Source: Geothrix sp. SG200
GTDB taxonomy: Bacteria > Acidobacteriota > Holophagae > Holophagales > Holophagaceae
Assembly (NCBI RefSeq): GCF_022808935.1
Contig: NZ_JAKZFR010000001.1
Location: 806,001-870,000, forward strand
Length of the DNA stretch: 64,000 nucleotides
Direction: 5' to 3'
In this document: positions 2,456 through 63,413 of the stretch, piece after piece
How the letters are laid out: each line of letters opens with the position of its first letter
Numbering within the stretch: the stretch's first letter is position 1
The notes under the pieces: generated by a model
Database searches by the model: none
Seen by the model: only the letters and a program-made list of their open reading frames with translations
What the model was told of the DNA's origin: nothing
Position numbers and translations under genes: made by a program

Positions 2456-4936
2456 ATGGCTTCGAACCAGGCATCCCACTCATCCCCCGCCCGGCGCTGG
2501 ATCGGGCGCGCCCTGTGGGCCTTCCTGGCCCTGGCAGTGGCCGGCGCGGCCACCCTGGCGGTGTCCTGGTCCGTGCTCTCGCGGGACGCGGACAGCTTCC
2601 TCACGCTGTTCGCCCTGCGCGTGCCCAAGACCATCACCAAGGTGCTGGATCACGACGGCAACGTCATCGGCATCTTCGCCGAGGAGCACCGGGTGGTGAT
2701 CCCCTACGGCGACATCCCCAAGGCCTTTGTGAGCGCGCTCGTGGCCACCGAGGACTCGGACTTCTGGAGCCACAGCGGCGTCTCCGCCCGGGGCATCATG
2801 CGCTCGGGCGTGAACTTCATCACCAGCTTCGGCCGGCGGCGGGAGGGCGCCTCCACGCTCACCATGCAGCTCATCCGCACGGTCACCGCCAAGCGCCAGA
2901 AGCGCCTGGACCGCAAGCTGAAGGAGATCATCCTCGCCCGCAAGCTGGAGAAGGCCTACTCCAAGAAGCAGATCATGGAGATGTACGCCAACGAGGTGTA
3001 CTTCGGCGGCGGGCGTTACGGCATCGAGGCTGCTGCGGAGTTCTACTTCGGCAAGAGCGCCCCCCAGCTGAACGTGGAGGAATGCGCCCTGCTGGCGGGG
3101 CTGGTCCAGAATCCGAACTGGTACAACCCCTACAATCCCGACCCCAAGGCCCGCGCCGCCGCCAAGGCCCGGCGCAACCACGTGCTGCTCCGGATGGTGA
3201 AGGAGGATTACCTCAAGGCGCAGGAAGCCAGCCTGCTGATGGACAAGCCCATCCGCCTGGCCCGCGAGAACGCCCGCGAGGAGGCCGTGGCCCCCTATGT
3301 GGTGGAAGAGGTCCGCAAGTACCTCTACGAGAAGTACGGCCGTGAGCAGGTCCTGAACGGCGGCCTGGAAGTGACCACCACCGTGGACAGCTACTGGCAG
3401 GAAGCCGCCAACGAGGCCGTGCGGAATGGCTTGAAGGCGGTGGATCGCCGTCGCGGATTCCGGAAGGATGCCGTGCAGTTCGTGACGGATCCCGATACGA
3501 CACAACTCAACGGATGGAAGCGCTACTTCGAGGCCGGCGACAACGTTCGGGGCGTGATCCTCGCCTGGAAGGGCGGCAAGGCCCAGGTGCGCATCGGCAA
3601 GACCACCCTCGAGGTCCCCGACAGCGCCTTCGCCTGGATCGGCAAGGATCCCCAGAAGCTGCTGCCTCGCGGCGCCGCGCCCCTCTTTCTGGTGAAGGCG
3701 GCGGATGACGGCACGCCGAAGACCCTGGAACTGGACCAGGAGCCCCAGGTGGAAGGCGCATTGATGGCGTTGGACCCGAAGACAGGCGAGATCCGTGCGA
3801 TGGTGGGCGGCTACGACTTCAACCGCTCCAAGTTCAACCGGGCCATGCAGGCGCAGCGCCAGGTGGGATCCACCATGAAGGCCTTCGTCTACGGTGCGGC
3901 GTTCACGGCCGGCAAGACGCCCGCCAGCATGGTCCTGGACGTGCCCACGCGCTTCGTCAACACGGTGGACTACATGACCGTGACCCTTCCGGACGGCACC
4001 TCCGAATACAAGCCCCTGCGCGGTGGCGTGAAGCCTTACGAGCCCAAGAACTACGAGCGGGATTTCTGGGGCCCCATCCCCATCTGGGAGGCCCTGCGGG
4101 ATTCCCGGAACGTGCCCGCCGTCCGCACGCTGGAGGAGACGGGCGTCCTCAACGTCGTCGATTTCGCCCGCAAGTGCGGGCTCACCAGCAACATCCCCCC
4201 CTATCCCAGCATGGCCCTCGGTTCCGCCGACCTGACGCTGAAGGAGATGGTGCGCGGCTACGCCACCATCGCCAACGACGGTCTCCAGGCGCCGGTCCCC
4301 TTCTTCATCAAGAAGGTAGTGGACCGCAATGGCCGCGTTCTCGAAACCCACAGCGGAGCGGCCACTGAGCAGGTGCTGGACGCGCAGAGCACCTACCAGC
4401 TCATCCAGTGCCTCCAGGGCGTGGCCACCAGCGGCACCGGCGCCAAGAGCAACGACCTGAACTGGCCCGTGGCCGGCAAGACCGGCACCACCGATGATCA
4501 CACGGATGCCTGGTTCATCGGCTTCTCCACCCGCGTGGTGTGTGGTGTGTGGGTGGGGCTGGACGAAAAGAAGACCATTTACCGCGGGGCCGACGGCGGC
4601 AAAGTGGCGCTGCCCATCTGGGTGGACTTCATGAAGGCGGCGCTCCCCACCACCCCCAAGGAGGACTTCCAGGCGCCCGAGGGCATGGAATGGGCGGACA
4701 TCGACCGCTACACGGGCCTGCTGGCGACCTCCGCCACGGCCGACAAGGTGCTCCACCTGGCCTTCAAGCCCGGGACCGTGCCCAAGTCCGGCAGCGACGC
4801 CGAGGCCATCCAGAAGGTGAAGGAGGCCCGGGACAAGGCGGCCGCCCAGCCCGTGGAGAACCGTGTCTGGGGCCAGCCCCCCAAGGTCGAGGCACCCAAG
4901 CCCGTGGATCTGAACGCGACGGATCCGAACGGGTGA
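2456..4936 (+). CDS. Class A penicillin-binding protein (glycosyltransferase 51 plus transpeptidase)
   Basis: 826 aa. A short cytoplasmic N-terminus and one transmembrane helix (about residues 15-40) are followed by a GT51 domain with catalytic Glu99 in the ATEDSDFWSH segment. A linker follows, then a transpeptidase domain with Ser472-T-M-Lys475, an SRN motif and Lys675-Thr-Gly. Class A PBPs polymerise and cross-link peptidoglycan at the outer face of the inner membrane. The closest family name is PBP1A (mrcA/ponA). An in-frame ATG at 2426 would add ten residues but overlaps the nadK start codon; neither start has a clear ribosome site, so 2456 is a choice. Confidence 0.93.
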   Translation: MASNQASHSSPARRWIGRALWAFLALAVAGAATLAVSWSVLSRDADSFLTLFALRVPKTITKVLDHDGNVIGIFAEEHRVVIPYGDIPKAFVSALVATEDSDFWSHSGVSARGIMRSGVNFITSFGRRREGASTLTMQLIRTVTAKRQKRLDRKLKEIILARKLEKAYSKKQIMEMYANEVYFGGGRYGIEAAAEFYFGKSAPQLNVEECALLAGLVQNPNWYNPYNPDPKARAAAKARRNHVLLRMVKEDYLKAQEASLLMDKPIRLARENAREEAVAPYVVEEVRKYLYEKYGREQVLNGGLEVTTTVDSYWQEAANEAVRNGLKAVDRRRGFRKDAVQFVTDPDTTQLNGWKRYFEAGDNVRGVILAWKGGKAQVRIGKTTLEVPDSAFAWIGKDPQKLLPRGAAPLFLVKAADDGTPKTLELDQEPQVEGALMALDPKTGEIRAMVGGYDFNRSKFNRAMQAQRQVGSTMKAFVYGAAFTAGKTPASMVLDVPTRFVNTVDYMTVTLPDGTSEYKPLRGGVKPYEPKNYERDFWGPIPIWEALRDSRNVPAVRTLEETGVLNVVDFARKCGLTSNIPPYPSMALGSADLTLKEMVRGYATIANDGLQAPVPFFIKKVVDRNGRVLETHSGAATEQVLDAQSTYQLIQCLQGVATSGTGAKSNDLNWPVAGKTGTTDDHTDAWFIGFSTRVVCGVWVGLDEKKTIYRGADGGKVALPIWVDFMKAALPTTPKEDFQAPEGMEWADIDRYTGLLATSATADKVLHLAFKPGTVPKSGSDAEAIQKVKEARDKAAAQPVENRVWGQPPKVEAPKPVDLNATDPNG

Positions 4937-54735: not shown

Positions 54736-56409
54736 ATGCAAGACGACCACGTGACACCCCCCTCCCACCATGGCCGGAGTCCGAATCAGAACGCGGCGCG
54801 AGAGAAATTCGCGGGTCACCGCAGGTGGCAAGGTGTATCTCGCAAACTGATGGTGCTGCAGGGGCTCCGTCGCCGATTGGACCAGCTGGCGCAAGAACGC
54901 GACGAGCTGCGACTCGTGCTGCACATCAACAAGCTTCTTCTGAACAACCTGGACCCAGAGCAGCTATTCGTGGCCATCTCGTCGGCCTTATGGGAGCGCA
55001 CGCACCACGATTTCATGACCCTGAGCACACTGGAGTCGAAAGGTACCATGGAGCGTCTTCGGCTCTTGGACTTCACTCGCTCTCGGGGGCAGTTCAGAAT
55101 TGGCGATCAGGTCCCTGAATCCCTGGAGTTGGCTAGCAGGGCCCTGGACACCAAGCAGATCGATATCCTCGATCCGGCTCGGATCGCCGCTCTTCAACCG
55201 CCTGAGCTTGCCCGACTGCTACAGCAGGAGCACATCCAGTCCATCTGCCTCATTCCCTTGCATTCCCGAGGTAAGGCGTTGGGAGTGATGAGTCTGGGAA
55301 GCCAAAAGGAGCTTGGCTTCCAAGGGGCCAACCTGCGCCTGCTGGAACTCGTCGCGGGCCAGATTGCTCTCGCATTGGATAACGCAATGGCCTTCCAGGA
55401 CATCCGCCACTCACACGATAAACTGGTGGAGGAAAAGCTGTATCTGGAAGAGGAAAGGGCCCAGGACTTCGCAACCCAAGAGATGGTCGGTGCTAGCCCA
55501 TCTTTCGCAAAGGTCCTGCAGCAGATTGAAACTGTGGCCCCCTCCGACGCCACGGTCCTCCTGCTGGGAGAAACCGGAACTGGCAAGGAACTGCTGGCGC
55601 GAGCCATCCATGAGCGGAGCAAACGGAAGGAACGCACCTTCATCAAGCTCAACTGCTCGGCCATCCCCATGGGTCTGGTGGAGAGCGAGCTGTTCGGCCA
55701 TGAACGAGGGGCCTTCACAGGAGCCATCGCCAGAAAGGTCGGCCGATTCGAGCTTGCCCACCTGGGTTCCCTGTTCCTGGACGAAATTGGTGACCTCCCC
55801 CTGGAGCTTCAGCCAAAGCTTCTACGCGCCCTTCAGGAGCGAGAATTTGAACGCCTGGGCAGCACCCGAACCCTTCGAGTCGATGTGCGGTTGATCGCCG
55901 CGACTCATCAGGATCTGGCACAGATGGTCGAGAATGGGAGCTTCCGCCGGGATCTGTTTTACCGCCTAAATGTGTTTCCGGTCCGGGTCCCGCCGCTGCG
56001 TGATCGCAAGGAGGACATTCCCAACTTGGTCCGATATTTCACTCAGAAGTTTTCCAGGGCCATGGACAAGCGCATCGTGCGCATTCCTGCCGAAACCATG
56101 GAATTCTTGGTTCGATGGCCTTGGCCTGGAAACATCCGGGAATTGCAGAACCTGGTGGAGCGATCGGTGATCCTCAGCCCAGGTCCGGACCTGCATGTGC
56201 CCATGGGTGAGATGATCCTGCCGGCGGTCCACTCACCAGTTGCCGCTGCCCAGACCTACGAAGACCTGGAACGCCAGGGCATCCTGGAGGCTCTGAAGGC
56301 GAGCGGGGGCGCTGTGGGGGGGCCTCACGGCGCAGCTGCGCGCCTTGGCCTGAAACGCACAACCCTGAATTCCAAGATGAAGCGTCTCGGACTTGATCGG
56401 CCCAAATGA
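54736..56409 (+). CDS. Sigma54-dependent enhancer-binding regulator (GAF-AAA-Fis)
   Basis: 557 aa. N-terminal helix and GAF domain (about 70-220; VLHINKLLLNNLDPEQLF start) rather than a receiver, so control is by ligand, not by phosphorylation. AAA+ domain about 245-480: Walker A GETGTGKE (278-285), GAFTGA (325-330), Walker B LFLDEIGD, and sensor Arg. C-terminal Fis-type helix-turn-helix (GGPHGAAARLGLKRTTLNSK). FhlA/NtrC family. Three sites matching its likely operator lie beside the three sigma54 promoters, so it is the expected activator. Confidence 0.92.
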   Translation: MQDDHVTPPSHHGRSPNQNAAREKFAGHRRWQGVSRKLMVLQGLRRRLDQLAQERDELRLVLHINKLLLNNLDPEQLFVAISSALWERTHHDFMTLSTLESKGTMERLRLLDFTRSRGQFRIGDQVPESLELASRALDTKQIDILDPARIAALQPPELARLLQQEHIQSICLIPLHSRGKALGVMSLGSQKELGFQGANLRLLELVAGQIALALDNAMAFQDIRHSHDKLVEEKLYLEEERAQDFATQEMVGASPSFAKVLQQIETVAPSDATVLLLGETGTGKELLARAIHERSKRKERTFIKLNCSAIPMGLVESELFGHERGAFTGAIARKVGRFELAHLGSLFLDEIGDLPLELQPKLLRALQEREFERLGSTRTLRVDVRLIAATHQDLAQMVENGSFRRDLFYRLNVFPVRVPPLRDRKEDIPNLVRYFTQKFSRAMDKRIVRIPAETMEFLVRWPWPGNIRELQNLVERSVILSPGPDLHVPMGEMILPAVHSPVAAAQTYEDLERQGILEALKASGGAVGGPHGAAARLGLKRTTLNSKMKRLGLDRPK

Positions 56410-56439
56410 CGACATGAAGTCGCGAGACGTCATGTCGTC
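56408..56439 (+). promoter_or_regulatory. Enhancer-like site 2
   Basis: GACGACATG (56408-56416) and CATGTCGTC (56431-56439) form a perfect 9-bp dyad around a 14-bp spacer. It begins at the stop codon of the regulator gene. It lies about 100 bp upstream of the sigma54 promoter at 56526. Confidence 0.82.
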
Positions 56440-56525: not shown

Positions 56526-56540
56526 TGGCATCGTGTGTGC
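56526..56540 (+). promoter_or_regulatory. Sigma54 promoter of the lipoprotein gene
   Basis: TGGCATCGTGTGTGC has the correct GG-N10-GC spacing. The 5' leader that follows (start about 56552) is homologous to that at 57547: both have GGAGG-N6-GTG. Confidence 0.82.
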
Positions 56541-56568
56541 CCAGGGGCTTCATGATTGGAGGCCCGAG

Positions 56569-57144
56569 GTGCCACGAATCCACGATGAAAAAGGGCACCA
56601 GGCCGAAAGGCGGGCCAGTGCTCCTCCGAGTCAAGCGGTGCGAACGCTGATTCGAGGTGTGGCGTTCCTGTGTGCTCTGCTTCTACTCCAGGCACTGCTC
56701 TCATGCAGGAGGCTCAATTTCACCGGCACCTCCCTGGAGGAGGATCGCCTCACCACCATGAAGACGTTCTGCATCGATAGCCAGCCAGATTCAGCGCTTT
56801 GCATCTGGAATATGCGGACCATTCCCTTCGAAGAGTTGAAGCCATTGGTGTCTGACCGACTCATGGAGAAGGGTTACCGGATGGCGCTGCCTCAGGAGGC
56901 GGATTTCCAAATTGTCCTGACCACGTTCACTGAGGAGTCGTCCCCACGCACCCGGGTTCCAGTCATTGAGATATTCGAGCGACATGGCGCACGAAAGCTC
57001 TGGTGGGGGCACGCCGAGATTCCTTACAAGCTGGATCCGAGACAAGGGGTGAGGGATCAACCCGCTTTGACGGGGCTGCTGGACCTCATAGCACCTCACA
57101 CTGAATCCGATCGCACCCCATCCCGCTCCATGCTTCGGGATTGA
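56569..57144 (+). CDS. Sigma54-driven lipoprotein of unknown function
   Basis: 191 aa from GTG 56569 (GGAGG, 6 bp spacing). The N-region of 24 residues is followed by a hydrophobic segment and a lipobox LLSC (about residues 45-48), so the mature form begins at Cys; an in-frame GTG at 56638 would give a normal-length signal. The mature part (about 145 residues) has a pattern similar to DUF4136 lipoproteins: MKTFCIDSQPDSA, then SDRLMEKGYRMALPQEADFQIVLTTF. An open frame from TTG 56494 crosses the sigma54 promoter and is rejected. Confidence 0.72.
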   Translation: MPRIHDEKGHQAERRASAPPSQAVRTLIRGVAFLCALLLLQALLSCRRLNFTGTSLEEDRLTTMKTFCIDSQPDSALCIWNMRTIPFEELKPLVSDRLMEKGYRMALPQEADFQIVLTTFTEESSPRTRVPVIEIFERHGARKLWWGHAEIPYKLDPRQGVRDQPALTGLLDLIAPHTESDRTPSRSMLRD

Positions 57145-57426
57145 CGCGAAGTGGTTCCTTCCTTGATCGAAGGTCCGGATTCTCTTCATGAATCGAAGGG
57201 TGAAGGGCTCCTTGCTGCATGAGGCCTGTGGGGCCTCGGGCCCTTCGGAACTCGTACGGGAACATGATTACCAGGGAGGTTGGGGAAGGACCTCCCACAC
57301 GGCCCGTTCCACCCAGCCCGCTGTGCCTCTACTGCCTGGGTGAGCCGGAGGCATCGACGCCTTTCCTGGGCAGAAGCACGGCATCTCTCACGCCGAGGCA
57401 CAAGGACTCCTTTGGCCGAGCCAACT

Positions 57427-57458
57427 GACGACATGAAGTCGCGAGACTCCATGTCGTC
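57427..57458 (+). promoter_or_regulatory. Enhancer-like site 3
   Basis: GACGACATG (57427-57435) and CATGTCGTC (57450-57458) form the same 9-14-9 dyad as site 2, with a spacer that matches at 12 of 14 bases. A further partial copy (CGACGATGTCGTC) follows at 57465-57477. It lies about 104 bp upstream of the promoter. Confidence 0.82.
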
Positions 57459-57546
57459 TCGGGGCGACGATGTCGTCTTCGGAGCAGAGGCAGGCTCTTT
57501 CGATACAAATATTAATATAAAAAGAGTTAAAATTGTTTGAACAAAC

Positions 57547-57561
57547 TGGCATCAAGTGTGC
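57547..57561 (+). promoter_or_regulatory. Sigma54 promoter of the STAS-RND operon
   Basis: TGGCATCAAGTGTGC with GG/GC in the sigma54 register. Start is expected near 57573, 18 bp before the GTG of the STAS gene. Same TGGCATC core as the other two. Confidence 0.82.
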
Positions 57562-57590
57562 GCATAGGGCTCCGTGAATGGAGGTTCTGT

Positions 57591-57875
57591 GTGCTGAGAA
57601 TCCATGTTGAATCTGAACAAGAAGCTGTGCGGCTGCGCCTAGAAGGGAAGGTCATCCATCCCTGGGTGGACGAACTCTTCAGGGTGTGGATGGATGCCTC
57701 CCCCCGAATTCCCGGTCACTGGGAAGTCGTCGTGGACTTATCTGAGGTCTCCTTCGTGGATGCCCGTGGCAAAGCAATGCTCGCGGCCATGCGCCGAGCC
57801 GGGTGTTTGCTGCAAGGTCCAACCCCATTCATCGAAGCCGTCATCGAGGAAGTCGAATCCCTTTCCAAGGACTGA
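57591..57875 (+). CDS. STAS-domain protein
   Basis: 94 aa from GTG 57591 (GGAGG, 6 bp). It reads as one STAS domain: strand VRLRLEGKVIH, then VVVDLSEVSFVDARGKAMLAAM, the usual STAS core where a Ser would be phosphorylated in anti-sigma antagonists, here replaced by Asp-Ala-Arg. It resembles the stand-alone STAS proteins next to lipid or efflux genes (MlaB-like). A TTG frame from 57537 covers the promoter and is rejected. First gene of the RND operon. Confidence 0.78.
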   Translation: MLRIHVESEQEAVRLRLEGKVIHPWVDELFRVWMDASPRIPGHWEVVVDLSEVSFVDARGKAMLAAMRRAGCLLQGPTPFIEAVIEEVESLSKD

Positions 57876-57900: not shown

Positions 57901-58980
57901 ATGCACCGCAAACTTCTCATCCTATCTCCTCTGTGCCTGACCCTTGCCTGCGGCAGTCACCAAGAGGCCGTTGAGACTGCCAAGGCCAACATCTCGGTGG
58001 CACAGCCCACCCGTGTCCAGGAACTGGAACGCGTTGGCGTCAGCGGCACCTTGACGCCCCAGGGTGGATCCTCCATGGTGGCCTTTCAGGTGCCGGGCCG
58101 GGCGGTTCAGGTCCTTCTGAGGGAAGGTGAGCCAGTGCGGAAAGGACAGCTCCTGGCCGTCCTGGATTCCGAGAACCTCGCCCATGCGATGGAAGCAGCC
58201 CGTGCCCAGGTGGCGGCTGCAAGGGCGGGAGCGGACCAGGCAGACCAGGAATTCCGCCGCATGAAGCAGCTGTTCGACACTCAGAGCCTGGCGCCCAATG
58301 ATTTCGCAAAGTTTACTGCGGCCCGGGACGCCTCCCGCGAGCAGCTTCAGCAGGCGATCGCCGGGGAAGGCGTGGCTCGCAAGAACCTGACCGAAGCCAG
58401 GCTGGTGGCACCCATCAACGGTTTCATCGCGCGGCGGATGGTGGAGCCGGGCGTCATGGTGGGCGCAGGCCAGCCCGTCTTCGAAATCGCGCAGCTGGAT
58501 CCCATTGAGGTGAACGTCGGAATCCCCGAAACCGACGTAAGGCTCGTGAAGGTGGGGCAGTCCGCCTCGATCACGATTCCCGCTTTGCCCGGCCGCCTCT
58601 TCCAGGGCCGCGTGCGGGTGGTGAACATTTCAGCCGATCCTGCGACGCGAACCTACATGGCTCGCGTCAGCGTCCCCAATCCGCAACGTGAGCTCAAGGT
58701 GGGCATGGTTGCCGAGGTCTCCATCACCGGATCGCAGCATTTGGACATGCTCACCCTGCCATCCGAAGCCATCGTTCGGGATCCCCAAGGCGCCACCCAG
58801 GTATTTCAGTTCTTCCCCGATCAGCAGCGGGTCTACTCGAAGCGGGTGGAAGTGGGGGCGGTGTACGGGCGCAGCATCCAGATTCGATCCGGCCTTACAG
58901 GGAACGAGTCCATCGTGGTGGCCGGCCAGAACACCCTGCGTAACGGCATGATCGCCGAACCCGTCCAGGGGGGTAAGTAG
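57901..58980 (+). CDS. RND efflux periplasmic adaptor (membrane fusion protein)
   Basis: 359 aa lipoprotein: signal ending LTLACGSH, with Cys anchored. Typical adaptor order: barrel-sandwich (VAFQVPGRAVQVLLREGEPVRKGQLL), a helical hairpin (about 95-155), the second lipoyl half (ARLVAPINGFIARRMVEPG), beta barrel and membrane-proximal domains. It joins the RND pump to an outer-membrane factor. It lies 25 bp after the STAS gene and 2 bp before the pump gene. Confidence 0.93.
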   Translation: MHRKLLILSPLCLTLACGSHQEAVETAKANISVAQPTRVQELERVGVSGTLTPQGGSSMVAFQVPGRAVQVLLREGEPVRKGQLLAVLDSENLAHAMEAARAQVAAARAGADQADQEFRRMKQLFDTQSLAPNDFAKFTAARDASREQLQQAIAGEGVARKNLTEARLVAPINGFIARRMVEPGVMVGAGQPVFEIAQLDPIEVNVGIPETDVRLVKVGQSASITIPALPGRLFQGRVRVVNISADPATRTYMARVSVPNPQRELKVGMVAEVSITGSQHLDMLTLPSEAIVRDPQGATQVFQFFPDQQRVYSKRVEVGAVYGRSIQIRSGLTGNESIVVAGQNTLRNGMIAEPVQGGK

Positions 58981-58982
58981 CC

Positions 58983-61900
58983 ATGAACAAAGCCATCAAA
59001 GCCTTCCTACGCTACCCGACCATCACGGCCATTCTCGTCATCATGGCCGTGGCGCTGGGGATCCACGCCCTGATGGGCATGCCTCGTACCGAGGACCCGA
59101 GCATCACCATCCGGACCGGGATCGTCGCCGCCATATATCCTGGTGCCACCACGGAACAGGTGGAGAAGCAGGTCACCAAGACGCTGGAATCGCACATCTT
59201 CAAGTTCCAGGAAGTGCGCAAGGAGAAGACCTACTCCACCAGCCGACCTGGCCTCGCGATCATCAACGTGGAGCTGGAGAAGAACGTCAAGACTCCGGAT
59301 GTGTTCTGGGCGAAGCTGCGCCACGAGATGAACCTGGTGAAGGCCACCGAATTGCCGGGCGAGGTGATGGGACCGGTGGTGGATTCGGATTTCGGAGACA
59401 CCGTGGCCATGCTCATCTGTGTGAGCGGCGAACGCTACGGCTACCGTGAGCTGCGCGATTACGTGGACACGATCCAGGATGCCCTTCGCACCGTGCCCGA
59501 AGTCGGGAAGATCGCGGTCTACGGCCGGCAGAACGAACAGATCTGGGTGACCAGCAGCCTCGAGCGCATGAGCCAGTACTTCACGGATCCCCGGCAGATC
59601 GTGGGAGCGCTGAATCAAAGAAACGAGATTCAGGCCGCCGGGAACGCCCGCACAGACAACGGCCAGATCCCCCTCCACACGACGGGGTCCTTCAATACGG
59701 AAGAACAGATCAAGAAGGTGATGGTCGGCATGTCCCCGACCGGTCAGCCAATCTACATCGGGGACTTCGCCAGTGTGGAGCGTCGGTACCAGGATCCGGA
59801 ATTCATGGTCCGCTACGACGGCAAGCCCGCCCTGATGATCTCCGTGGAGATGCAGAAAGGTCACAACATCGTCGAGATGGGCAACAAGGTGACCGAGGTG
59901 CTCAACCACCGGGTCAAACCCATGCTCCCGCCCGATCTCCACATGGACTACATCGCAAACCAGCCGCAGGTCGTGGAAGAGCGGATGACCCACATGGGCC
60001 GTGAGTTCCTCATCGCCATCGGGTGCGTCATCGTCGTGACGGTCCTCCTGCTGCCCTTCCGGGTCTCGCTCATCGCGGCCCTGGCCATCCCGACGACCAT
60101 GTTGACGACCATCGCCGTCATGAACGTCTTCGGGATCCAACTCCACCAGGTCTCCATCGCAGCCCTGATCGTGGTGCTCGGCATCGTCGTAGACGACGCC
60201 ATCGTCATCGCCGACAACTACGTGGAGCTGCTGGACCACAAGGTCCCGCGACCCGAGGCTGCCTGGCGATCCGCCACGGAAGTGCTCGTTCCGGTGCTGG
60301 CGGCGACCCTCACGATCATTGCCTCCTTCCTGCCTCTGATCATCATCTCCGGAAGTGCCGGTGAGTTCATCCTGGCCCTCCCCATCACCGTGGCGGTAGC
60401 CCTCTCCGTCTCCTTCCTCGTGGCGGTCTTCGTCACCCCGCTCCTTTGCCGAACCTTCATCCACAAGGGCTTGCACGACCACGACGCGGAACCTACGGAT
60501 CACGTCAAGAAGTTCAATGCCCTGGATCTCCTCCAGGTCGCCTACAAGAAGGCCATCACGTACTTCATGTCCAAGCCCATGCTCGCGGTCGGTCTGGGCG
60601 TGGCAGGAATCGTCCTGGGTGCCTTCCTATTCCGGTTTGTCCCCCAGGAATTCTTCCCCAACGCCGAACGCAACCAGTTCGTCGTTGACCTCTGGATGCC
60701 CCAGGGAACACGCATCGAGGCCACAGACGCCACCATGAAGCGCATCGAGGGCGAACTCCTCCGCGACAAGCGGGTGACTCACCTTGCCGGCTTCGTGGGG
60801 CAGAGCTCCCCCCGCTTCTACTACAACGTGAACCCACAGCAGCCCGATCCGGCCTACGGCCAGTTCATCGTGAACACGGTGGACGTGAAGGCCACCACGG
60901 CGCTCGTGGAGGAGCTCCGGTCACGCCTGGCACGCCTGGCGCCCGAGGGCATGGTCCTGGTTCAGGAACTCCAGCAGGGAGCTGTGATGGAGGCGCCCAT
61001 CGAATTCCGGATCTCCGGGGATGACGAGGCGAAGCTGAAAGCCATCGGTGAGCAGATCGGGGACATCCTCCAGAAGGACCCCCGGGCCCAGTTCCTCCAC
61101 ACCGACTACCGGAACGACTCCCCCATGATCAATGTGGACCTCAACACGGAGCTGGCCAACCGCCTGGGCATCACCCACATGGGCGTGTCGAACCTCCTCT
61201 ATGGCGCCTTCGATGGTGCACCCGTCAGCACGTTCTGGGAGGGCGACCGGGCGGTGAACCTCGTCCTGAGGGTCGACCCTGCCCACCGAGCCACCTTCGA
61301 TGATGTGCGAAACACGTACGTCGGTTCTTCCATCACCAACGGGAAGGTACCTCTGCGGGCCATCGCGGATCTCGCTCCCACGTGGCAGACCAGCCGTCTC
61401 GTGCGCAGGAACGGCGTGCGCACCCTGACCGTCCGCTGCCTCCAGGCCCCGAGGACCTATGCCTCTTCCATCCTCAAGGACGCTCTGCCGAAGGTGAAGG
61501 CTCTGAAGCTTCCTCCCGGGTACCGGCTCGAACTGGGCGGCGAATTTGCCAACCAGGAAGAAACACAGCCCGAGATGGTTGTGGCCCTTGGCATCAGTCT
61601 CCTGGCCATCTTCTTCATCCTCATGATCCAGTTCCGGAACCTGGTCGAACCCCTTGTGGTCATGGCTTCCATTCCACTTTCGCTCTTTGGTGTGGTCGTG
61701 GGCCTCCTCATAACCCGCAATTCCTTCGGTTTCACGGCTTTCATGGGCATGATCAGCCTCTGCGGCATCGTGGTCCGGAACGCCATCATCCTCATCGACT
61801 ACATCAAGGAGAAGCTGCGCGAGGGTATCCCCCTTGTGGAGGCCGCCACCCTCGCCGGTGAGCGTCGACTGCGACCCATCTTCCTCACCACCATGGCTGC

Positions 61901-63413
61901 GGCCGTCGGTGTAACACCCATGGTTCTTTCGGGCTCGAAGATGTGGAGCCCTCTGGCCAGCGTCCTCGCGGTCGGTCTGATCTTCTCGATGTTCTTCACG
62001 CTTCTGGTGGTCCCCGTCATCTACGTGCTCGTGTTCCGGTCCAAAGAGAGCTCATCCACTGGAAGCCGGGTGGTTTCGGTCATCCCGATGTTCATCCTGG
62101 CCTTGGTCCTGGCGTCCCCGCTCAGTGCGGGGGTGTCGGAACCGAAGCACCTGACGCTCGAGCAGGCTGTGGCCAGCGCCCTCGACCACAGTGCGGCCAT
62201 CCGCATCGCACGGGCCAAGGTCGATGAGGCAGCGGGGAAGAAACGCACGGCGCGAGCCGACTACTTCCCGCAACTCGCAATGGATGCCACCTGGTTGAAG
62301 CGCAACGATCAGCCCTTCATGACCATTCCTGCGGGCTCTCTTGGCAACGTTCCTGGCCTAGGTCCCTTCCCGACCCAGGACGCCAACCTGGGCCAGGGTA
62401 AGACGCATCTTTTCTATCAGAACATCACCTTGAGCCAGCCCCTCACCCAGCTTTTCAAGATCCACCATGGGAACGAGGTCGCCTCTGCCGAGGAGCGGGG
62501 GGCAAAGGCCGAGCTGCGAAAGATGGAGACCGAGATCGCCTATCAGACACGCCAGGCTTACTACGGCCTTCTGATCGCTCAGGCCCAAATCACGGCTGCT
62601 CAGGCAGGCGTGGCTGCGGCCGAATCCCAGGATCTGGATGCCCAAGATGCCGTCAAAGCGGGGAATGCCCTGAAGGTGCAGCAAATCGGGAGTCGGGCCA
62701 AGCTCCTCCAGAACCGCTACAAGCTGAGTACCGCTCAGGCCACAGCCTCTGATCTCGCGTCGGAACTCAACGACTTGATGGGTGAACCCCTTCAGACACC
62801 TCTGGACCTTGCCCCTGTCTCCACTGAAGCACGGCCGCTTCCAGCGCGTGAAGCGATGCTGGATCAGATCCGGAAGTCCAATCCCGATCTGGCAGTAGCC
62901 CAGGCGTCGCTCGAGAAGAGCCGCAGCGCCCTCAAGGCAGGCAAATCCGAATACATTCCTGAACTGGGTGCCTTCATCCGTCAGACCCACCAGGATGGAC
63001 TTCCTTTCGTCCAGGCCAACTCCACCTCCTACGGGCTCTCCCTGAGTTGGACCATTTTTGACTGGGGCAAGCGATCCGGTGTGGTCCACCAGCGGGCTGC
63101 CCTGGCGAGCCAAGCCTCGAGCAACTACGACCGGGTGCGCAACCGTACTGAGATCGATCTCGATCGGCTGCTCCGTAAGCTGGAAACGGCGCGAATCCTG
63201 TCAGAGGCCGCTGAAGATGCGAATGCCATGAACGTTGAAAAGGCCCGTCTGGCCGGGAATCAGCACAAGTCCGGACTGATTCCAGTCTCAAAAAAGTTGG
63301 AAGCGGATGCCGAGGCCACTGCTTCCGAGGCCGAACTTCTCGCCGCTCGCCTGGGACTTGATCTCACGCGCGCCGAGCTGGATCGACTGCTCGGAGGAGG
63401 TTTAAATCAATGA
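58983..63413 (+). CDS. RND efflux pump fused to a TolC-type outer-membrane factor
   Basis: 1476 aa. Residues 1 to about 1023 are a complete RND (HAE-type) pump: 12 helices, TM4 proton-relay Asp404-Asp405 in GIVVDDAIVIADNY, and Arg932 at the TM10 Lys position in GIVVRNAIILID. A hydrophobic segment (about 1030-1052, VVSVIPMFILALVLASPLSAG) with a signal-peptidase-like end then leads to a full TolC/OMF (about 1055-1476; LTLEQAVASALDHSAAIRIA and the duplicated SLSWTIFDWG half). Whether it is cut or the TolC part is reinitiated (GTG/ATG about 62070-62088) cannot be told. No stop or frameshift separates the two. Confidence 0.93.
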   Translation: MNKAIKAFLRYPTITAILVIMAVALGIHALMGMPRTEDPSITIRTGIVAAIYPGATTEQVEKQVTKTLESHIFKFQEVRKEKTYSTSRPGLAIINVELEKNVKTPDVFWAKLRHEMNLVKATELPGEVMGPVVDSDFGDTVAMLICVSGERYGYRELRDYVDTIQDALRTVPEVGKIAVYGRQNEQIWVTSSLERMSQYFTDPRQIVGALNQRNEIQAAGNARTDNGQIPLHTTGSFNTEEQIKKVMVGMSPTGQPIYIGDFASVERRYQDPEFMVRYDGKPALMISVEMQKGHNIVEMGNKVTEVLNHRVKPMLPPDLHMDYIANQPQVVEERMTHMGREFLIAIGCVIVVTVLLLPFRVSLIAALAIPTTMLTTIAVMNVFGIQLHQVSIAALIVVLGIVVDDAIVIADNYVELLDHKVPRPEAAWRSATEVLVPVLAATLTIIASFLPLIIISGSAGEFILALPITVAVALSVSFLVAVFVTPLLCRTFIHKGLHDHDAEPTDHVKKFNALDLLQVAYKKAITYFMSKPMLAVGLGVAGIVLGAFLFRFVPQEFFPNAERNQFVVDLWMPQGTRIEATDATMKRIEGELLRDKRVTHLAGFVGQSSPRFYYNVNPQQPDPAYGQFIVNTVDVKATTALVEELRSRLARLAPEGMVLVQELQQGAVMEAPIEFRISGDDEAKLKAIGEQIGDILQKDPRAQFLHTDYRNDSPMINVDLNTELANRLGITHMGVSNLLYGAFDGAPVSTFWEGDRAVNLVLRVDPAHRATFDDVRNTYVGSSITNGKVPLRAIADLAPTWQTSRLVRRNGVRTLTVRCLQAPRTYASSILKDALPKVKALKLPPGYRLELGGEFANQEETQPEMVVALGISLLAIFFILMIQFRNLVEPLVVMASIPLSLFGVVVGLLITRNSFGFTAFMGMISLCGIVVRNAIILIDYIKEKLREGIPLVEAATLAGERRLRPIFLTTMAAAVGVTPMVLSGSKMWSPLASVLAVGLIFSMFFTLLVVPVIYVLVFRSKESSSTGSRVVSVIPMFILALVLASPLSAGVSEPKHLTLEQAVASALDHSAAIRIARAKVDEAAGKKRTARADYFPQLAMDATWLKRNDQPFMTIPAGSLGNVPGLGPFPTQDANLGQGKTHLFYQNITLSQPLTQLFKIHHGNEVASAEERGAKAELRKMETEIAYQTRQAYYGLLIAQAQITAAQAGVAAAESQDLDAQDAVKAGNALKVQQIGSRAKLLQNRYKLSTAQATASDLASELNDLMGEPLQTPLDLAPVSTEARPLPAREAMLDQIRKSNPDLAVAQASLEKSRSALKAGKSEYIPELGAFIRQTHQDGLPFVQANSTSYGLSLSWTIFDWGKRSGVVHQRAALASQASSNYDRVRNRTEIDLDRLLRKLETARILSEAAEDANAMNVEKARLAGNQHKSGLIPVSKKLEADAEATASEAELLAARLGLDLTRAELDRLLGGGLNQ

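Follow-up and report, generated by a model that had tools for sequence, protein, structure and literature searches.

Paralogous copies of a probable enhancer, sigma-54-type promoter and translation start ahead of a lipoprotein gene and a STAS-efflux operon in the Geothrix group

INTRODUCTION

Why should two neighbouring genes with different products, one for a lipoprotein and the other for a STAS-like protein that heads an efflux operon, begin with nearly the same control region? The question arises in a 64,000-nt stretch of the Geothrix sp. SG200 genome (G000:C1:806001–870000; a 3.36-Mb genome, 98.4% complete), which we call the window. A preliminary description of this DNA had noted that the first ∼65 bp of the two transcripts align and had proposed that a promoter-leader cassette was copied, along with an upstream dyad, in front of two unrelated coding sequences. 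The promoter motifs concerned are of the sigma-54 type; in the sigma-54 consensus ten bases separate GG from GC, within TGGC…TGC.

RESULTS

Genes of the locus and genomes compared

Genes of the locus run in the order p272 and MscS on the minus strand, followed on the plus strand by the genes of an activator (EBP), the lipoprotein, the STAS-like protein, an adaptor and an RND permease with an outer-membrane factor. The EBP (557 aa, 54736–56409) combines GAF, an AAA+ sigma-54 activator domain with GAFTGA and a Fis-type HTH; its Pfam matches were Sigma54_activat (2e-71), GAF_2 (2.6e-11) and HTH_8 (1.9e-4), the last one, with 21.5 bits, narrowly missing the cut-off of 22. Among the NCBIfam matches listed (25 of 29) the EBP stayed below the cut-off of every model, the best match, formate hydrogenlyase activator (NF011958), having 513 bits against a cut-off of 830. 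A GAFTGA-bearing ORF was present in all 11 loci searched for this motif, and the sigma-54 gene was represented by a single PF00309 match in the genome (52.4 bits, cut-off 23.8).

The lipoprotein ORF (191 aa, GTG start, 56569–57144) has a signal peptide with …LLSC at residues 43–46, as judged by eye; no Pfam family matched it at E ≤ 0.001, and its counterpart in one relative (G072) matched DUF4136 below threshold (18.2 of 32.8 bits). The STAS-like protein (94 aa, GTG start, 57591–57875) matched Pfam STAS_2 (PF13466) at 5e-6, its 27.0 bits falling narrowly under the gathering score of 29.2. Then come the periplasmic adaptor (membrane fusion protein) of the RND pump (57901–58980; TIGR01730 at 3e-68, above cut-off) and a single 1476-aa ORF for the permease and a TolC-type outer-membrane factor (58983–63413; ACR_tran at residues 5–1017, best OEP stretch at 1291–1471). 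The permease portion of this ORF is of AcrB type, and tblastn matches of the permease and of the outer-membrane factor abut without a gap in G017, G001 and G011. At two loci from other genera of the family (L036 of G057 and L038 of G044) a single ORF begins with the STAS-like domain and goes on into a TolC-type outer-membrane factor; midway along these ORFs there is, as judged by eye, a stretch resembling a signal peptide, and a related EBP is again found upstream.

In a search of 77 genomes of the family, a relative of the STAS-like protein was found to be encoded in 13. Its identity was at least 87% in six genomes of the same genus: the window genome G000, G017 and G001 (in the same genus group as the window genome), G072, G028 and G011. 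Both copies of the control region were compared in these six genomes, the Geothrix group.

Two control regions of the same layout

All elements of the two regions are on the plus strand. Copy 1 begins with dyad 1, a probable EBP-binding enhancer (UAS; 56407–56439) with a 32-bp imperfect palindrome at 56408–56439; the EBP stop codon forms its beginning. It is followed by the −24/−12 sigma-54-type promoter of the lipoprotein gene, P1 (TGGCATCGTGTGTGC, 56526–56540), with GG-N10-GC spacing, and by a leader with the ribosome site TGGAGG (56541–56568). Copy 2 consists of dyad 2 (57426–57458, palindrome 57427–57458), the sigma-54-type promoter P2 of the STAS-efflux operon (TGGCATCAAGTGTGC, 57547–57561) and the STAS gene leader with its ribosome site (57562–57590). 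As described earlier, TGGCATC-N2-GTGTGC is shared by both promoters and is followed at both sites by GGGCTTC or GGGCTCC and then by TGA(N)TGGAGG-N6-GTG. The dyad had been placed ∼1 kb away; we found dyad 1 119 nt upstream of P1 and dyad 2 121 nt upstream of P2, while 1,019 bp is the distance between the two copies in the window (the D1 repeat, dyad 2 included, spans 57412–57461).

The search for more copies genome-wide yielded none beyond these two: the promoter pattern had two exact matches in the whole genome, P1 and P2, and the dyad pattern with up to three mismatches matched dyad 1 and dyad 2 only (0 matches in 100 shuffled windows). The patterns used matched nothing beyond the two copies and a divergent third pair, P3, described below.

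The distance from dyad to promoter is 118–121 nt in 12 of 12 copies (P1 and P2 in six genomes), and P1, P2 and P3 all show the consensus spacing and context. A cognate-type GAFTGA activator adjoins the dyad-bearing promoters, and the dyads are its putative binding sites. In dyad 1 of G072 and G011 both arms are changed from those of G000 in a matched manner (GACGAC..GTCGTC and GACGAA..TTCGTC), in keeping with a symmetric site; four other dyad copies differ on a single arm. At the sixth dyad pair both arms are changed in 2 of the 12 copies and one arm alone in 4, so the symmetry is not strict. The outgroups conform less closely: in G053 a possible dyad lies 109 nt from the promoter, and in G070 none is recognisable.

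Comparison of the promoter-to-start leaders of copies 1 and 2 gave z = 5.4 in the window, with 0 of 1000 shuffles as good, so that the alignment noted earlier held up against a motif-only expectation; in the other five genomes z was 3.6–8.4 (0 to 6 of 1000 shuffles). Over the 16 nt ahead of the ribosome site, identity was 63% for P1 × P2 (four by five copies) versus 16% for P1 × P3 and 15% for P2 × P3 (three P3 copies). The spacers between dyad and promoter gave no alignment of the two copies in any of the six genomes (996 of 1000 shuffles were as good in the window).

Both leaders have an inverted repeat, CTTC or CTCC/GGAG (56545–56568 and 57566–57590), around the expected transcription start. 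A leader RNA hairpin masking the ribosome site was considered and rejected: the leaders folded no better than shuffles (z of −0.68 and 0.21). Moreover, the transcription start expected from the sigma-54 rule falls within the 5′ arm of such a hairpin, which speaks against it.

Likeness extending into the coding sequence

The copied unit proved to be larger than first noted, reaching past the start codon to codon 15. At its N-terminus (56569–56613, plus strand) the lipoprotein ORF carries the copied STAS start codon and codons 2–15, as seen from P1 × P2 identity, which was 62% over codons 2–15 versus 26% over codons 16–35. Codon register 0 was the best of 230 registers, the runner-up having 44%. 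These counts were made with four P1 copies (leaving out G017, which is near-identical to G000, and G028, where these codons are largely deleted) and five P2 copies (leaving out G017); the same copies and three P3 copies were used in the control, with identities over codons 2–15 of 27% for P1 × P3 and 32% for P2 × P3. Homology between the copies ends sharply at codon 15/16, a single junction of STAS 5′ sequence and captured gene. An example is G072, with VLRIHIENHQDAVQL at the lipoprotein start and VLRIHVENEPEAVRL at the STAS start.

Per genome, the comparison of codons 2–21 (nt 4–63) gave z = 6.5 and 0 of 1000 shuffles as good in G072; the numbers of such shuffles were 10 in G001, 45 in G017, 50 in G000 (z = 2.0 in the window), 71 in G011 and 468 in G028, G072 being alone among the six genomes below 10 per 1000. 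The alignment of ∼65 bp is real but was drawn too short, as the likeness runs 45 nt into the coding sequences and upstream across the dyad. Similarly, the statement that the coding sequences are unrelated is right beyond codon 15; the first 15 codons are common by descent.

A relic of the EBP gene before copy 2

Upstream of dyad 2 (57337–57425, plus strand) lies the place of a relic of the EBP 3′ end; in G000 it is recognisable at the dyad-adjacent bases only. At the same place in relatives the relic was detected with z = 22.6 in G072 (locus L031), 20.8 in G011 (L033) and 4.7 in G028, each with 0 of 1000 shuffles as good. G072 and G011 kept it at a length of 125–137 nt, in broken form, and since it has a one-base gap relative to the EBP gene it no longer codes in frame there. 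With the exception of the dyad-adjacent bases in G000, the relic was not significant in G000 (978 of 1000 shuffles), G017 (551) and G001 (84). The 3′ end of the donor's upstream neighbour is thus significant in both repeats in G072, G011 and G028 and not significant in G000, G017 and G001. Since codons 2–21, the spacer and the relic are weak blocks in the window, descent of these parts rests on the relatives.

The G072 and G011 relics aligned with scores of 97–129 to the six Geothrix-group EBP tails, and to the G053 and G070 tails with scores of 23–61. The G028 relic is short, and its scores with the two sets overlap. A blastn search for remnants of the barrel gene that some relatives have (see below) in the gap 57145–57425 of the window matched, at E < 1e-3, the dyad-adjacent bases alone.

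The relic upstream, together with shared codons 1–15 downstream, indicates duplication of one segment that reaches from the EBP 3′ end as far as STAS codon 15. The captured lipoprotein gene is flanked on both sides by the direct repeat of the donor promoter.

Age and direction of the duplication

In a tree of the copies, six P1 and six P2 sequences split with support 0.990. On the P1 side the main groups are those of the EBP protein tree, (G000,G017),G001 and G072,G011,G028; on the P2 side (G000,G017),G001 had support 0.950, with no supported order among the P2 copies of G072, G011 and G028. The P1 group was placed beside the P2 copy of G072 with weak support (0.712). There was no sign of later exchange between the copies. 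The P1/P2 split and the agreement of P1 groups with EBP groups point to one duplication, which most likely preceded the divergence of the six genomes.

The outgroup genomes G053 and G070, from another genus of the family, have the EBP gene directly ahead of the promoter and the STAS gene, with no lipoprotein gene. As this order is unduplicated and the copied codons are STAS codons, the direction of copying is from STAS to lipoprotein.

Fate of the lipoprotein gene

The lipoprotein ORF is intact in G000, G017, G072 and G011, frameshifted in G001 (a draft genome) and reduced to a signal-peptide scrap in G028, where both cassettes are kept. An Omp85-type barrel gene follows it in G072 and G011 and is absent from the other four genomes. 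The six genomes thus present different states: G072 and G011 have lipoprotein and barrel, G000 and G017 have the lipoprotein without the barrel, G001 has a frameshifted lipoprotein gene, and in G028 the gene is lost and the control sites are decaying.

All five genomes that have the gene can be read without a stop from the copied GTG into the signal peptide, a stretch of 25 codons whose length is the same in each. Among six pairs taken from G000, G001, G072 and G011, the residues of these 25 codons drift (dN 0.45–0.70, dS 0.60–1.46) much faster than those of codons 31–50, the signal peptide region, where changes are mostly silent (dN 0.08–0.22, dS 0.43–1.59). Translation would then start from the copied GTG, using the copied ribosome site, with the STAS-derived codons making a long n-region; an inner start is the alternative. 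Wherever the gene persists, whole or frameshifted (five genomes), P1 and dyad 1 are retained. In G028 the −12 GC of P1 is lost (TGC to TGT) and dyad 1 has fewer symmetric pairs than any of the other 11 copies (10 of 16 versus 12–15).

A third dyad–promoter pair

On the minus strand, a third and divergent pair, P3 (54413–54546), stands ahead of p272-MscS-patatin, with a UAS ∼120 nt from TGGCATCTTACCTGC. The spacing is 119–121 nt in four of four copies (G000 and its counterparts at loci L029, L030 and L031). The P3 dyad is a direct repeat, GACGAAAT..GACGAAAT, 19 nt apart, not an inverted one, and it is exact in three of the four genomes. The start codon after P3 is joined straight to p272 in G000, and a longer sequence intervenes in three relatives; in G072 the first start after P3 runs into a stop and hence is not p272's own start there.

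A composite dyad–promoter pattern, searched with 0 mismatches, had three matches in the genome, all around the EBP gene; more divergent sites would be missed by a search of this stringency. The reversed pattern gave 0 matches, and in the window the same three were found, with 0 expected from shuffles. This suggests a closed local regulon of P1, P2 and P3. Judging from the EBP architecture, the sigma-54 gene and the strict spacing, transcription from the three promoters is probably enhancer-dependent. The EBP would bind both dyads and the third, divergent site, reach sigma-54 polymerase on the three promoters by looping, and switch on the envelope and efflux genes together; EBP binding, sigma-54 dependence and co-induction are predictions of this kind.

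DISCUSSION

Taken at the level of sequence, the existence of the two copies, their extent, their single origin in the six genomes and the STAS-to-lipoprotein direction are established by the comparison of relatives. We regard it as very probable that one stretch, running from the EBP 3′ end through dyad, sigma-54 promoter, leader and ribosome site to STAS codon 15, gave rise to both sites as paralogous copies, that the STAS operon was the donor and that the copies have a regulatory role. That a promoter-leader cassette was copied along with its dyad, as first proposed, is borne out by homology of non-regulatory sequence on both sides, by the 0.99 split and by the unduplicated order in the outgroups. 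One could argue that P1 and P2 are alike merely because sigma-54, the EBP and the ribosome demand the same motifs: dyad, −24/−12 elements and ribosome site are all functional, the equal spacing at P3 speaks of an imposed architecture, and in the window alone the spacer and the relic fail to align and codons 2–21 are matched by 50 of 1000 shuffles. Such convergence would leave the likeness of STAS codons 2–15, and of EBP 3′ coding sequence in G072, G011 and G028, without a regulatory reason, and P3, under similar constraint, shows no such likeness; we consider it extremely improbable and reject it. An origin of the two promoters with two EBP paralogues, such as G070 has, was also rejected: the G070 EBPs group together (0.967).

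By what route the lipoprotein gene acquired the copy is a matter on which the map and the junctions bear. We lean towards a tandem duplication whereby an upstream gene captured the promoter. A single duplication would have run from an upstream lipoprotein gene through the EBP gene to STAS codon 15; the new junction would have fused codon 15 in frame with the upstream lipoprotein gene (perhaps with the Omp85-type barrel behind it), which thus captured the promoter; afterwards the spare first lipoprotein copy and the second EBP gene would have been lost, with an EBP 3′ relic remaining. The map predicted in this way (EBP, cassette, STAS codons fused to lipoprotein, barrel where present, EBP relic, cassette, STAS) is the one observed. 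Ahead of the EBP gene, no further copy of the lipoprotein or barrel gene was found, either in the upstream spans (133 nt in G011) or in whole-genome searches, so that it is the junctions that support a tandem duplication; the missing copy of the captured gene could have been deleted. The same final map would result if DNA with the segment from EBP 3′ end through promoter to STAS 5′ end, and with the lipoprotein gene (and barrel), had entered by one crossover, leaving the shared segment as flanking direct repeats. The barrel is patchy, being present in 3 of 77 genomes of the family, and G070, of another genus, has a barrel 81% identical on the contig of its EBP-STAS cluster, behind a different EBP and MscS; both facts indicate that such modules move. 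Against this stands the need for a donor molecule already holding the fused junction, of which none was seen, and the relic is nearest to Geothrix-group EBP tails, so that the donor would have to be a close relative. Insertion therefore appears to us rather unlikely, and tandem duplication stays the preferred route.

Two further observations concern modules of this kind. At locus L057 of G070 homologues of patatin, a second EBP, MscS (83%) and the barrel (81%) stand in a row, on the contig of the EBP-STAS-RND cluster; similar modules are thus arranged differently in another genus. In G011 (L033, ∼2,950–3,045 of the reversed locus) a second lipoprotein-gene fragment (query residues 34–66 of 139) lies between lipoprotein and barrel, a sign of more local duplication. 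As to the source of the lipoprotein gene, weak relatives in G022, G003, G029 and G065 (E of 7e-4 to 1e-3) did not reveal its origin.

Does the captured copy still function? It could be a dead leftover, with P2 alone functional; the frameshift in G001, the loss in G028 and the absence of the barrel from four of six genomes would agree with that. We find this improbable, as the ORF is intact in four genomes, codons 31–50 change mostly silently, and P1 and dyad 1 are kept where the gene persists and decay in G028. We think it fairly probable, rather, that the Geothrix group holds a natural multi-species record of an enhancer-dependent promoter captured together with a translation start. In such a record, the export signal of the lipoprotein would have got a new start and n-region from another gene's codons, which have drifted widely with the frame kept in all five genomes that have the gene, and dyad and promoter would decay where the gene is lost.

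In the long-term experiment with E. coli, the gene for the citrate transporter reportedly captured a promoter through tandem duplication. Like regulons of the FhlA/NorR/NtrC type, the locus has −24/−12 promoters, a GAF-AAA+-Fis activator with GAFTGA and a dyad ∼120 nt upstream; unlike them, it has three sites that were all found around the EBP gene, and among the matches listed the EBP reached no NCBIfam cut-off. The operon has the adaptor, permease and outer-membrane factor of RND tripartite efflux operons; it differs in that a STAS-like gene leads and that permease and outer-membrane factor share one ORF.

Promoter capture by duplication has been described for E. coli, where transferred genes without a promoter come under a duplicate of a resident one (PMC11111574); that paper also cites the citrate-transporter and Salmonella his cases. 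The present case is similar in that a gene lacking the promoter has gained a duplicate of the resident one. It is different in that the Geothrix-group copy is old and common to six genomes, has an activator-type promoter with a dyad, and brings along a ribosome site and a start codon, with 15 codons joined in frame to the captured gene. In an open literature library we found nothing on sigma-54 promoter duplication with an enhancer-binding protein and nothing on sigma-54 in Geothrix; titles and abstract beginnings of the matches listed for STAS domain, RND efflux and sigma-54 mentioned no such locus. Promoter capture by duplication as such is already known; new here is a natural, unusually complete case, with enhancer and translation start.

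Wild relatives thus show a result that laboratory evolution yields quickly, the gain of regulated expression by duplicating a neighbour's promoter, and the captured unit is unusually complete, with dyad, activator-type promoter, ribosome site, start codon and first codons. If this reading is true, the working sister copy within a genome could serve as the reference for measuring how sigma-54 control sites decay. The predicted small closed regulon would tie an efflux pump to envelope genes.
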